Source: Bryobacteraceae bacterium (lineage in GTDB: Bacteria > Acidobacteriota > Terriglobia > Bryobacterales > Bryobacteraceae). From it: a stretch of DNA of 64,000 bases. Numbering within the stretch: the first letter of the stretch is position 1; each line of letters opens with the position of its first letter. Below the pieces are notes generated by a model. It saw only the letters and a program-made list of their open reading frames with translations. It ran no database searches and had not been told where the DNA came from. Below, piece by piece: positions 4,560 through 11,293 of this stretch. A program made the position numbers and the translations under genes. The stretch lies in contig JAHCHE010000004.1 of assembly GCA_026129905.1 (NCBI GenBank), forward strand, positions 62,001 to 126,000. The letters are read 5' to 3'.

Positions 4560-5783
4560 ATGTTGAACCGGCGGGAGCTACTCAAGGCGGCTGGATTGGC
4601 CGCGTTTCCCGTGTCCGCGGCGGGCAAAACCAATATCGCCGCGGTGATCACCGAGTACCGCAGGAACTCGCACGCCGATGTCATCGTCGGCCGCCTGCTG
4701 GAGGGTTACGAGTATTACGGCCGGCGCCGAGCGCCGCGGGTGAAGGTCGTTTCAATGTACACGGACCAGGTTCCGGCCAACGACATGAGCCGCGCGATGG
4801 CCGTCAGGCACGGTTTCCCGATCGCCCCCACGGTCCGTGAGGCGCTGACGCTCGGCGGGGACAAGCTCGCGGTAGAAGGCGTCGTGCTGATCGGCGAGCA
4901 CGGCAACTACCCGGAGAACGAGAAGGGACAGAAGCTCTATCCGCGCTACGAGCTGTACCGCCAGATCGTCGACGTGTTCCGCGCTTCCAACCGATCGGTT
5001 CCCGTCTTCACCGACAAGCATCTCTCGGTGGAGTGGGAGAAGGCCAAGTGGATGGTGGACCAGTCGCGCGAGCTGAAGTTCCCGCTGCTGGCCGGCTCTT
5101 CGCTTCCTGTATCGTGGCGCAAGCCTCCGCTCGAGCTCGATCTTGGCGCTCCCGTCGAGCGCGCCGTCGCCTGCTTCTACGGCGGCAAGGAATCCTACGG
5201 CTTTCACGCGCTCGAGGCCTTGCAGTGCATGGTCGAGCGGCGCAAGGGAGGTGAAACCGGCGTGGCGGCGGTCCAGTGCCTCGAAGGCGCCGAGATCTGG
5301 AAATGGACGGACGCCAATTCGTGGGCCGGCCGGCTGCTCGAGGAAGCGCTGAAGCGCTCGGAAACCCGCAAGCCGGGCGCGCCGCGCGACAACGTAAAAG
5401 AGCCCGTCCTGTTTCTTCTGGAGTATCGCAGCGGGCTGCCGGCCGCGGTGTACATGTTGAACGGCCATGTGTCGGATTGCACGTTCGCGGCCGACATCGA
5501 AGGAGCCAGGCAACCCGCCTCGACGCTGGTCTGGCTCCAGTCCGGACGGCCTTTCAGCCACTTCAGCAGCCTGTCGCATTACATCGAAGAGCTGATCGTC
5601 ACGGGGCGCTCCCCGTACCCGGTGGAGCGGACGCTCCTCACTACCGGGACGCTGGCGGCCCTGATGGACTCCTCCTTCCGCGGCCAGGCGCGCCTGGAAA
5701 CGCCGAGCCTGTCGGTGTCCTACAAGCCGCCGCAAGAATCGTTGTTCAATCGCGGAGCGGTACCCGCACTGGAGAAGACATGA
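4560..5783 (+). CDS. Tat-exported protein of unknown function
   Basis: The 407-residue protein starts with a twin-arginine signal (NRRELLKAAGLAAFPVSAAG). The mature part begins with an alpha/beta fold (TNIAAVITEYR, EGVVLIGEHGNYP) and is globular throughout, with no membrane segment. I do not recognise a characterised family; similar exported proteins are common in Acidobacteriota and Planctomycetes. Its stop overlaps the start of the M19 dipeptidase by ATGA, so the two are translationally coupled and the polysaccharide deacetylase follows, which suggests a small catabolic operon. The conserved Glu/His-rich stretch GEHGNYPENEKGQ could bind metal or ligand; this is speculation. Confidence 0.7.
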   Translation: MLNRRELLKAAGLAAFPVSAAGKTNIAAVITEYRRNSHADVIVGRLLEGYEYYGRRRAPRVKVVSMYTDQVPANDMSRAMAVRHGFPIAPTVREALTLGGDKLAVEGVVLIGEHGNYPENEKGQKLYPRYELYRQIVDVFRASNRSVPVFTDKHLSVEWEKAKWMVDQSRELKFPLLAGSSLPVSWRKPPLELDLGAPVERAVACFYGGKESYGFHALEALQCMVERRKGGETGVAAVQCLEGAEIWKWTDANSWAGRLLEEALKRSETRKPGAPRDNVKEPVLFLLEYRSGLPAAVYMLNGHVSDCTFAADIEGARQPASTLVWLQSGRPFSHFSSLSHYIEELIVTGRSPYPVERTLLTTGTLAALMDSSFRGQARLETPSLSVSYKPPQESLFNRGAVPALEKT

Positions 5784-6964
5784 AATTGTTACTGCTGTTT
5801 GCTGCCGCGCTCGCGCTGGAGGCTCAGGTCTCCGACCGCGCCAGGAAGTTGCACCAGGACGCATTCCTGTTCGACGGCCACGTGCACATGATCACCCGCC
5901 AGTTCTATCACGGCGGCGATATCGGCCGGCGCTATCCGGACGGACAGGTGGACCTGCCGCGGATCAGGGAGGGCGGCGTCGACGCCTTCATGTTCACGCT
6001 CTACGTAACGGAGAAGTACTACCCGCAGCGCTTTGAGACGAAACAGCTCATGCGGCTGATGGACCTTGCGCTGGCGCAGATCGAGCGGAACAAGGACACG
6101 ATTGAAGTCGCCTTGAACGCCGGCGACATCGCCCGGATCAACAAGGCCGGCAAGATGGCAGCCGTCCTTGACCTTGAAGGGAGCTTCGATCTCGACGGCG
6201 ATCTCGGAGTGCTGCGGAATTTTCACCGGCTCGGCTTGCGCGTGGTCCAACTCCCGGCGCACAACTGGACGAACAATTACGCGGATTCCTGCTGCGCCCC
6301 GGCGAAATGGAACGGACTCACCGAACACGGCCGCGAGGTTGTCCGGGAGATGAACCGCCTCGGCATTCTCATCAATGTCTCGCACGCTTCGGATGCAACC
6401 ATCGAGCAGACCCTCGAGGTCAGTGCCCATCCCATAGCGGCGACGCACCACGGCATGCGGGCATTGAACAATATTCCCCGCAACATGCCCGACGAGCTGA
6501 TGAAGAAGGTCGCCGCGAAAGGCGGCGTGATCGGCTTCCATATCGGAAACGATTTTCACAACCGCAAGGTCTTCGAGTGGCGCACGAAGCAGGAGGGCAA
6601 GACGTTCTGGGACACCAGCGAGATCGCCAGGAAGAAGGGCCTACGTACCATTTTCGAAATTGACAGACAGGTGGCGCCGATGTTTCCCATGGTCGGTCCC
6701 GAGGCTCCGGACGAACTGCTGTTCTCCGTCGACGAGTGGGTCGGCGTGGTCGACCGCGCGATCGGGATCGTCGGCGAGGACCACGTCGCGCTGGGCTCCG
6801 ATTTTGACGGCGGTCCCACGCCTCCCCGCGGCATGCGCGATATCCGCGACCTGGCGATGGTCACCGACGCCATGCTGCGGCGCGGCTACTCGGAGGAGCG
6901 CATCCGGAAGTTCCTGGGCGGCAATCTCCTCCGGGTGTTCCGGCAGGTGACGCAAGGCCGGTGA
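5780..6964 (+). CDS. membrane dipeptidase-type metallohydrolase (peptidase M19), exported
   Basis: The ATG at 5780 overlaps the previous stop by four bases and gives a signal peptide (MKLLLLFAAALALEAQ), so longer upstream readings of this frame are rejected. The 394-residue product has the renal dipeptidase signature set: a metal-binding DGHVH near residue 31, a bridging Glu in AAVLDLEGSF, NVSHASDATI with a metal His, HHGMRALNNIPRNMPDE for substrate binding, and HVALGSDFDGG with the C-terminal Asp. M19 enzymes hydrolyse dipeptides, often with a D-residue, in the periplasm. The DGHVH form is a slight variant of the usual DGHND. The exact substrate is unknown. Confidence 0.88.
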   Translation: MKLLLLFAAALALEAQVSDRARKLHQDAFLFDGHVHMITRQFYHGGDIGRRYPDGQVDLPRIREGGVDAFMFTLYVTEKYYPQRFETKQLMRLMDLALAQIERNKDTIEVALNAGDIARINKAGKMAAVLDLEGSFDLDGDLGVLRNFHRLGLRVVQLPAHNWTNNYADSCCAPAKWNGLTEHGREVVREMNRLGILINVSHASDATIEQTLEVSAHPIAATHHGMRALNNIPRNMPDELMKKVAAKGGVIGFHIGNDFHNRKVFEWRTKQEGKTFWDTSEIARKKGLRTIFEIDRQVAPMFPMVGPEAPDELLFSVDEWVGVVDRAIGIVGEDHVALGSDFDGGPTPPRGMRDIRDLAMVTDAMLRRGYSEERIRKFLGGNLLRVFRQVTQGR

Positions 6965-6978
6965 GATCATAGTCGCTT

Positions 6979-8411
6979 ATGCGTTTGTTCCTGCTGCTGC
7001 CGCTGGCGCTCTGTTTCGGGCTCCGGGCGGCATCCCCGCCGCCGGTGTACGTAACCGTCTGGTTCGACACCGAGGATTTCATCGATCCTCGCAGCGACGA
7101 CGCGGCGAAGGAGATCGCGGAACGGCTTCGCGCTCTCGGCGTCCGGGCAACCTTCAAGGTGGTGGGCGAGAAGGCGCGCTTCCTGGAACGGAACGGCCGC
7201 CGCGACGTCATCGAAGCGCTGCGCTTCCACGACATCGGCTATCACACCAACTATCACAGCGTGCCCCCCGCCCCGGCGGAGTATCTCGAGACGATGGACC
7301 TGGCCGAGGGCGCGGCCGAATTCTATGCGCGGGAAGCGGGAGGCGTGCGCGACCTGGTCCGGATTTTCGGACAGCGGCCAAGCTGCTACGGCCAGCCTGG
7401 CAATTCGTTCGCCCCGCACGTCTACCATGCGCTCGAACGGCTCGGCATCGGGCTTTACTTCGACGCCTTCACCCAGGTGCGGATCGACGACCAGCCGTTC
7501 TGGTACGAGGGCATCCTGACCATGGCCAGCCATGACGCCTTCACCGTCCGCGCGGAGCCCGACGCGCCGCCGGGGATCGCCGAGGCCCGCCAGGCGGTGG
7601 ACGCGGAATGGGCGAAGCTTCAGCAGCGCGGCGGCGGCTTCCTCAGCATCTACTATCACCCGACGGAATTCGTCAATGCCGAGTTCTGGGAGGCGCGAAC
7701 TTCTCCGGCGGCGCCAACCCTCCGCGAAGCGAGTGGCGGCTGCCGAAGCCGCGCGCTCCCGGCGAGGTCCGGCGCGCTTATGAGGCGCTCGAGGAATTCG
7801 TGCGATACGTGAAGCCGAAACCCGGGGCGCAGTTCATTACCGCGTCCGAATTTTCCCGAATTTACGAAGATCTATCGCCGCGGCAGCTTCTAAAACAAGA
7901 TGACATCGAAAAATTAGCCGGGGATTTTCAGACCACGATAACCTTCGCGACAGTGCGGAATTTCACTCTGTCCGCGGCGGAAATCGTGGACGCGCTTCTC
8001 CGGTGGACGCTGGCCGGCCCCGGGGACAGGGGCCGGGGCATCCCGGCGCGAAAGACGCTCGCCCCCCGCGAGCGCGGCCGGACAACCTGCACAGAACCGC
8101 ACCTGCCGCGCGAGGCCTGGCTCGAAAGGTGCCGCTGGGCGGCGTCGTTCATCGAGGAAAACGGCCGGCTGCCCGCCTCGGTCTGGTCTGGTGTCCAATC
8201 GATGGGAATCGAGGACTTTGCGGCGACGCTGGCGGGCGATATTGCCGCGGGCGCGCCGGATTCGGCGCAGGTCCCCCTTCGAAAGGCCCGATGCGGCTTC
8301 TGCGATTACGTAGCCGGCGACGACCGCGCGCCATTCGAATGGCCGATTCATCGCAAAGGCTTCCGGGCGCCGCGGATCGTCGAACTGACCGCCTGCTGGC
8401 CTGGTCGCTGA
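6979..8411 (+). pseudogene. polysaccharide deacetylase family protein interrupted by a frameshift
   Basis: The first frame (6979 to about 7691) encodes a signal peptide (FLLLPLALCFGLRAAS) and a NodB-like domain with the Asp pair WFDTED, the ATFKVVGEKA strand and the HxxxH metal motif in GYHTNYHS. After FVNAEFW the reading continues in the +2 frame as GANFSGGANP, EVRRAYEALEEFVRYV and FITASEFSRIYED, ending at 8411. Adding one base after position 7691 restores a continuous protein (EFW[D/E]GANFSGG). It is therefore a one-base deletion, either a real inactivating mutation or a sequencing error. The second half (about 240 codons) includes an uncharacterised helical C-terminal region (SFIEENGRLP, GIEDFAATLAGDI). 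Confidence 0.72.
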
Positions 8412-10506: not shown

Positions 10507-10582
10507 AGCTTCGGCCTACGCCTCACGGCGCGTCACGCCGAATCTGCGCTACCCTGAAAGCATTCGGGAGGCTTTCTTCGGG

Positions 10583-11293
10583 ATGCGATCCACGCCGCGC
10601 TGGAAGAAATGGGCGATCGCCGCCGCGGTTGCGCTTGGCGTTTACGCTGCGGCTTTCGTAGCCTTTTTCCAGGTGATGCGCCGGCCGCCGGATGAATTCG
10701 GCCGGATCATGGCCAGGCTGCCGATGCCGCTGATGATGGTCTTCCCGTTCCAGCCGATGTGGAACGTCGCCCGCGGCGGATCTCTCCAGGTCGGCCAACC
10801 CGCGCCGGATTTCGCGTTGCCCCGCCGCGACACCGGCGACACGGTCCGGCTCCGCGAGTTCCGCGGCCACCGTCCTGTCGTCCTGGTCTTCGGCAGCTAC
10901 ACTTGACCGCCCTTTCGCCGGGAGGTTCCCGAGCTAAACCGTCTGTACAGCGAGTACGGCGACCGCGCCGCGTTCTTCGTCGTGTACATCCAGGAAGCGC
11001 ATCCCACCGATCTGTGGCAGCTTCCCGTCAATGTCCGCGAGGAGGTGCTGTTCGCCAGCCCAAAGACTTCCGACGAGCGCGCCGGCGTCGCCGCGGCCTG
11101 CGTCCGGGATCTTGGCATTAAGCTGCCCGCCCTGCTCGACCAGATCGACGACTCGACCGAAAAGGCTTATACCGCCTGGCCGGACCGCCTCTACGTGATC
11201 GACCGCGAAGGCCGCGTGGCCTACAAGAGCCGGCCCGGGCCGTTCGGTTTCAAGCCCGCCGAGATGGAGCAGGCGCTCAAGGCTCTCCTGTAG
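10583..11293 (+). CDS. iodothyronine-deiodinase-like selenoprotein (TGA codon 108 read as Sec)
   Basis: Read through one in-frame TGA (10904-10906), this is a single 236-residue protein. Residues about 8-32 form an N-terminal membrane segment and about 70-236 a thioredoxin-like fold. Around the TGA the protein reads VVLVFGSYT-U-PPFRREVPEL, then FFVVYIQEAHPTDLW. Vertebrate deiodinases have FGSxTUPPF and VYIxEAHxSDGW at the same places, so the TGA falls exactly on the catalytic selenocysteine. Both halves are in the same frame, and neither half is a complete thioredoxin fold alone. The bacterial homologues are thiol/selenol redox proteins of unknown substrate; activity on iodinated compounds is not implied. 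It stands alone between an SDR and a convergent ABC operon. No Sec machinery gene is in the window. Confidence 0.92.
10917..10934 (+). promoter_or_regulatory. bacterial SECIS-like hairpin downstream of the Sec TGA
   Basis: CGGGA (10919-10923) pairs with TCCCG (10927-10931) around a GGT loop; the outer pairs G10917-C10934 and C10918-G10933 extend the stem past a bulged A at 10932. The loop begins 17 bases after the TGA, and its first two bases are G. This agrees with the known bacterial SECIS model (apical loop 16-37 bases after UGA, G within the first two loop bases). Confidence 0.8.

Follow-up and report, generated by a model that had tools for sequence, protein, structure and literature searches.

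The window analysed here is a stretch of 64,000 nucleotides from a Bryobacteraceae bacterium (GCA_026129905.1, contig JAHCHE010000004.1, positions 62,001 to 126,000). It carries a putative deiodinase-like selenoprotein gene, the features of which are listed in Table 1. A single TGA codon is the sole interruption of its reading frame. With the standard code, the region yields a 107-aa ORF followed by a 103-aa ORF from GTG 10982, and gene finders would split the gene in two at the Sec codon. The initial annotation had described these two products and had noticed that the joined frame contains the deiodinase signatures FGSYT-U-PPF and VVYIQEAHPTDLW, with the TGA at the catalytic Sec position. Both observations were reproduced. 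The host assembly consists of 71 contigs with a total length of 8.57 Mb and an estimated contamination of 4.38%, and the gene is its only PF00837 match at E ≤ 0.001. The comparisons described below confirm, at the level of sequence, that 10583-11293 in this soil-type bacterium is a real selenoprotein gene related to the animal thyroid-hormone enzymes.

Table 1. Features of the deiodinase-like selenoprotein locus (positions in the window).
Feature	Position	Strand	Remark
Deiodinase-like selenoprotein gene	10583..11293	+	ATG at 10583; 236 aa, Sec at 108; stop codon 11291-11293 within the span
Shine-Dalgarno-like GGGAGG	10566..10571	+	11 nt 5′ of the ATG; read directly
Presumed N-terminal membrane helix, codons 10-32	10610..10678	+	Helical at 6-32 in the AlphaFold2 model and hydrophobic on inspection
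TGA codon 108, read as selenocysteine	10904..10906	+	Matches the Sec of Dio3 in the alignment; the crystallised Dio3 construct has Cys there
SECIS hairpin	10917..10934	+	7 pairs with a single bulged base at 10932; the loop is GGU (10924-10926)
Deiodinase-type loop YIQEAHPTDLW	10985..11017	+	Codons 135-145: Y135, E138, H140, W145
Invariant Cys173 codon	11099..11101	+	Proposed partner of Sec108

The same order was searched with the protein. Among 257 genomes, 101 gave a match at E ≤ 1e-10, and in 78 of these the match contained an in-frame TGA. Such genes are easily lost in annotation. The TGA was found at codon 108 in 76 of these 78 genomes; the remaining two are G065, a fragment that ends before the codon, and G208, whose sequence was not fetched. 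A scan of named records revealed further TGA-bearing relatives in Chloroflexi and Planctomycetota. The nucleotides 3′ of the TGA were then compared side by side at 90 Sec-type places, some of them beyond the order. Sixty-six of these places were used for the alignments A1 (protein) and A2, from which near-duplicates, short or broken genes (including L183 and L185) and some further members were dropped. Codon 108 is fixed by choice in the 66-row alignment because its members were hand-picked for carrying the TGA. The residues that follow are kept as well: P109 in 66/66, P110 in 65/66 and F111 in 65/66. The relatives thus continue as the same protein past the TGA, and the unrelated downstream sequence that the initial annotation had named as a reason to abandon the Sec reading was not seen in them.

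Cys takes the place of Sec at position 108 in 31 other aligned homologues; the set comprised 37 sequences for the hairpin test, and the short ones were dropped from the Sec/Cys alignment. In one close relative (L145, G234:C284) GGA stands in place of TGA, with the hairpin sequence 3′ of it retained, which is explained by a mutation or by faulty assembly. Two more relatives, G054/L169 and G149/L183, have a frame shift soon after the TGA. All three alterations come from draft assemblies, so they reflect either sequence error or decay. The Gly form and the frame-shifted L169 form part of neither the 90-place nor the 65-gene hairpin counts given below.

A hairpin with a GGT loop had been proposed as a bacterial SECIS element. 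The distance from the TGA to the loop is 17 nt, the loop has 3 nt, and the upper stem has 5 bp. The folding energy is -11.1 kcal/mol (MFE) or -9.2 kcal/mol for the hairpin-only centroid. The rules printed in PMC13188914 ask for a loop of 3-9 nt, an upper stem of 4-16 bp, a spacing of 16-37 nt, G in the first two loop positions and an MFE ≤ -7.5 kcal/mol. The hairpin agrees with that model on every one of these points, and it covaries in the relatives, which bears out the proposal. By single-sequence folding its stability is not unusual (z=+0.94), since 167 of the 200 shuffled sequences reach the same or a better energy. As this kind of folding is uninformative here, it is the comparative tests that decide.

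The covariation test was performed on 66 aligned sequences, 65 of them distinct, with 500 shuffles. It showed that 94.3% of the hairpin cells are paired, compared with a shuffled mean of 72.7% that no shuffle raised to the observed value; versions of the hairpin slid along the alignment reached at most 64.4%. The covariation score was 0.474 versus 0.117 in the shuffles (reached by 0/500), and 67 cells were changed on both sides versus 15.3. Both-sided change was seen in 6 pairs, a less telling count because 52 of 500 shuffles also reach 6. The pair of synonymous sites at +12/+27 is C-G in 50, G-C in 14 and G-U in 1 of the genes that encode R-R-E-V-P, so that it pairs in 65/65. The hairpin codons are nearly frozen in these genes: CGG for R113 in 65, GAG in 65, GTT for V115 in 64 and CCC in 64, counts that omit 23 places with other residues there as well as L183 and L185. 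Elsewhere in the same 65 genes, the respective codons are used at 24.9%, 59.8%, 13% and 35.4%. In the relatives encoding R-S-Q-V-G, the loop is unchanged but commonly enclosed by a flipped core stem, CCC/GGG in place of GGG/CCC.

The five core positions are paired in 83, 85, 89, 90 and 79 of the 90 Sec forms, which include the frame-shifted L183 and the divergent L185, and in 9, 18, 15, 26 and 16 of the 37 Cys homologues. The mean folding energy is -10.4 kcal/mol for the Sec forms and -5.9 kcal/mol for the Cys homologues. The hairpin is mostly absent from the 37 Cys homologues; this is not a contrast of RNA alone, because the peptide differs too. A search of the host genome with the SECIS sequence as the pattern, allowing ≤3 mismatches, gave 59 places versus 13 for the reversed pattern. 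Among the best 7 of the 58 places other than the gene itself, no further selenoprotein was found, as none has a TGA ≤24 nt upstream in a long frame.

The look-up of the selenocysteine machinery, which the initial annotation had made decisive for its reading, revealed all four genes in the same genome: selA (481.8 bits), selB (348.3 bits), selC (78.7 bits) and selD (374.4 bits). ARAGORN calls selC as a tRNA-Sec with a TCA anticodon. The selenoprotein gene and the sel genes lie on separate contigs of the assembly. The host selD (L100, G000:C10, minus strand) has an in-frame TGA of its own in AAG-U-ASKLSP, the place where Sec-type SelD proteins usually have Sec, and for this reason it is probably a second selenoprotein. 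Among the 78 genomes of the order whose match contains the TGA, 69 have SelB at E ≤ 1e-70 and the other nine have SelA above the cut-off; SelB is also present in 135 of the 179 genomes without such a match (Fisher p=0.019). The association is modest because 204 of the 257 genomes have SelB. Taken alone, the recoding of UGA 10904 as Sec by SelB and Sec-tRNA, guided by the hairpin, can be predicted with near certainty.

As had been suggested, the joined translation was searched against the T4_deiodinase family. It matched PF00837 over residues 69-232 with 103.5 bits (cut-off 27), and weaker matches were obtained with AhpC-TSA (PF00578; 52.7 bits, cut-off 26) and Redoxin (48.9 bits). All 66 members of A1, the window protein included, match PF00837 at E ≤ 1e-5. 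The NCBIfam model NF038285 (deiodinase_rel, deiodinase family protein) was matched by residues 69-233 at profile positions 177-341 with 217.3 bits, which is below its cut-off of 250; the first half of this 347-position model is unmatched, and the window protein has a short membrane-anchor region there. AlphaFold2, run from the 66-row alignment, gave a model with pTM 0.90 and a long N-terminal helix (6-32). In a structure search with this model, the best PDB chains were Dio2 (Z 21.9, rmsd 2.7, 168 aligned) and Dio3 (Z 21.1, rmsd 2.4, 164 aligned), followed by AhpE (Z 18.2, rmsd 1.9, 142 aligned). A profile search of PDB sequences likewise placed Dio3 (1.8e-32) and Dio2 (4.4e-30) far before the next entry (3.5e-8). 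Taken together, these matches are best read as those of a selenoprotein with a thioredoxin/peroxiredoxin fold, from the deiodinase-like (PF00837) branch. R or K occupies position 8, before the N-terminal helix, in 48/66 Sec forms, and these basic residues suggest that the topology is probably N-in/C-out, so that the catalytic domain would face outward.

The protein shares with mouse Dio2 (9h48) and Dio3 (4tr3) the FGSxT-Sec-PPF motif, the Y..EAHPxDxW loop and the Trx/Prx fold, at 27-30% identity and Z 21-22. The deiodinase site, according to passages of PMC7506546, PMC11592359 and PMC9141512, consists of Ser167-Cys168-Thr169-Sec170, Tyr197, Glu200, His202 and Trp207, together with His219, Arg275 and the distal Cys239. 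Alignment with Dio3 showed that Y135, E138, H140 and W145 correspond to Tyr197, Glu200, His202 and Trp207. The residues invariant in the 66 aligned Sec forms are F103, S105, T107, P109, R112, Y135, E138, H140, W145 and C173; position 143 is Asp in 63/66 and Asn in 3/66.

The cysteines are arranged differently from those of the animal deiodinases, as the window clade lacks both the proximal and the distal one and has an invariant Cys173 of its own. The proximal position, two before Sec (Dio1 Cys124, Dio3 Cys168), is Tyr106 here, and Tyr 61/66, Phe 3, His 1 and Leu 1 in the Sec forms. Dio2 normally has no proximal Cys either, as stated in a passage of PMC11592359. At the distal position (Dio3 Cys239; near Pro182), no conserved Cys was found around 181-182 in the Sec forms. 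Cys173 lies about nine residues upstream of that position in the alignment, on helix 163-177 of the AlphaFold2 model. It is the sole invariant Cys besides position 108 and is present in 66/66 Sec forms and 30/31 Cys forms. The third residue after Sec is Phe in 65/66 and Tyr in 1/66, so there is no CxxC/UxxC pair. With the peroxiredoxins (AhpC-TSA, e.g., AhpE) the protein has in common the PF00578 match and the similarity to AhpE; it differs from them in its deiodinase-type loop. The classical peroxiredoxin active-site signature is P-x-x-x-T/S-x-x-C. Here, Ser105 is present at -3, but -7 is Leu101 (invariant in A1) and not Pro.

Judged by its conserved residues, the protein is more likely a redox enzyme anchored in the membrane than one that acts on a hormone. 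According to the mechanism that we propose, SelB and Sec-tRNA would insert selenocysteine at UGA 10904 under the guidance of hairpin 10917-10934, and the N-terminal helix would anchor the protein in the membrane with its catalytic domain probably extracytoplasmic. Surrounded by Thr107, Tyr135, Glu138 and His140, an arrangement known from deiodinases, the selenolate of Sec108 would attack a substrate that is oxidised or electrophilic; a peroxide or disulfide is the most likely target, a carbon-halogen bond a less likely one. Cys173 could then resolve the oxidised Sec108 to give a selenenylsulfide, which a thiol donor would reduce. We hold this whole statement, a membrane-anchored and probably extracytoplasmic Sec108/Cys173 oxidoreductase or peroxidase including the recoding, to be rather probable. 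The neighbourhoods of 87 loci (up to about 7-8 kb per side, shorter at contig ends) contained no conserved neighbours pointing to a substrate. Besides the clusters of the gene itself, the largest recurring neighbour family occurs at 14/87 loci with scattered position and strand, and smaller ones occur at 5-11 loci. The gene context therefore gives no function.

Other readings of the locus were weighed against these data. The TGA could be a genuine stop or an assembly error. The locus would then be a Cys gene that has decayed or been split, with its downstream part beginning at GTG 10982. The two ORFs of the standard code would fit such a gene, as would the three relatives of the same order altered at or near the TGA. 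This reading is contradicted by the same TGA at codon 108 in the 76 same-order genomes and in the Chloroflexi and Planctomycetota records, by the nearly fixed synonymous codons and the covarying hairpin, and by the modelling of the protein across the TGA as one fold with a mean pLDDT of 96.2; we regard it as extremely improbable. Alternatively, the protein could be a true reductive dehalogenase, in which Sec108 strips I, Br or Cl from halogenated phenolics of the soil, as the animal deiodinases do with thyroxine. Dio3 and Dio2 are indeed the top sequence and structure matches, and the protein retains the deiodinase-site residues Ser, Thr-Sec, Tyr, Glu, His and Trp. The argument turns on His219 and Arg275 of Dio3, which are linked to the substrate pocket in a passage of PMC7506546. 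The corresponding positions are both Pro in the window protein (P160 and P218), and each is Pro or Ala in 63/66 Sec forms, with His at 160 in 3/66 and Arg at 218 in 1/66. In Dio1, according to the same passage, an Arg stands one residue earlier than Arg275, and Dio1 and Dio2 have no Arg at the same position as Dio3. Residue 217 of the window protein is likewise Arg (R/K in 16/66, this protein included), which weakens a simple reading that the clamp is missing. The authors of the Sargasso Sea report (PMC1088965) expected a function unlike that of the animal deiodinases. The neighbour genes, for lack of conservation, speak neither for nor against dehalogenation. Dehalogenation as the true activity thus appears unlikely to us.

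Assignment as a ResA/TlpA-type thiol:disulfide reductase, with a role in the maturation of cytochrome c or envelope proteins, is in our opinion unlikely too. The structure search did place ResA and DsbE chains high (Z ~17-18), and the membrane-anchored layout would be similar. Against this, the CxxC/UxxC pair is missing, and the Pfam and PDB sequence scores favour deiodinase. The initial description of the product as a candidate redox or dehalogenating enzyme can be retained; the Sec108/Cys173 redox enzyme is the side to which it would lean, because the clade mostly has no His219/Arg275 residues of the Dio3 type and has its own invariant Cys173, with dehalogenation the less likely activity.

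Bacterial deiodinase-like selenoproteins were reported from the Sargasso Sea in 2005 (PMC1088965); that study described four Sec sequences and raised a redox role as a possibility. They share with the window protein PF00837, a UGA at the catalytic position, a bacterial SECIS and the occurrence of Sec and Cys forms. From this report, the reviews PMC9312934 (2022) and PMC13188914 (2026) and the related model NF038285, it follows that the gene belongs to a class known since 2005. Both reviews give the family motif as UxxC, and the window clade, with U-P-P-F, differs from that description. No substrate is named for these proteins in the accessible portions of PMC1088965, PMC13188914 and PMC9312934. 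Titles and abstract beginnings in the open PMC literature yielded no paper on the Acidobacteria-type clade or on Cys173 pairing. What the present comparison adds is a large clade, the covariation of its SECIS, and a putative Sec108/Cys173 pair replacing the deiodinase cysteines. The family makes a good test case: the protein is short, its SECIS is strongly supported, Sec108 and Cys173 are both conserved redox residues, and sister forms with Cys are available for comparison.

In a tree of Sec and Cys forms with the mouse Dio2 and Dio3 stretches, the Cys forms did not form a single clade, and both Dio sequences stood on a long branch. As the tree covers ~160 residues and has no outgroup, it is not used to infer where the animal deiodinases came from. 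One may speculate that a deiodinase-like selenoenzyme spread through a bacterial order, and present in Chloroflexi and Planctomycetota records, which acts extracytoplasmically on halogenated aromatics or on some oxidised compound so far unrecognised as its substrate, with a relocated resolving Cys (Sec108-Cys173), represents the chemistry ancestral to the animal deiodinases; we give this idea a low probability.

Some relatives have a different architecture. The Cys-form loci (L055, L066/L186, L087, L193 and others) are mostly the later part of longer frames, often of ~480-600 residues, and in L087 TPR-like repeats precede the domain (by eye). A Planctomycetota record (L061) contains tandem deiodinase-like stretches at ~4621-5298 and 5782-7638, both with a TGA, the second of which continues as part of a far longer frame. 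A tblastn search against plasmids gave 5 weak matches with 25-39% identity. A distant gene annotated as 'deiodinase-like protein' on the Mycolicibacterium vanbaalenii plasmid NZ_CP126902.1 (L214; 25.3% identity over the matched part) adjoins a carboxymuconolactone decarboxylase and a glutaredoxin-domain gene.
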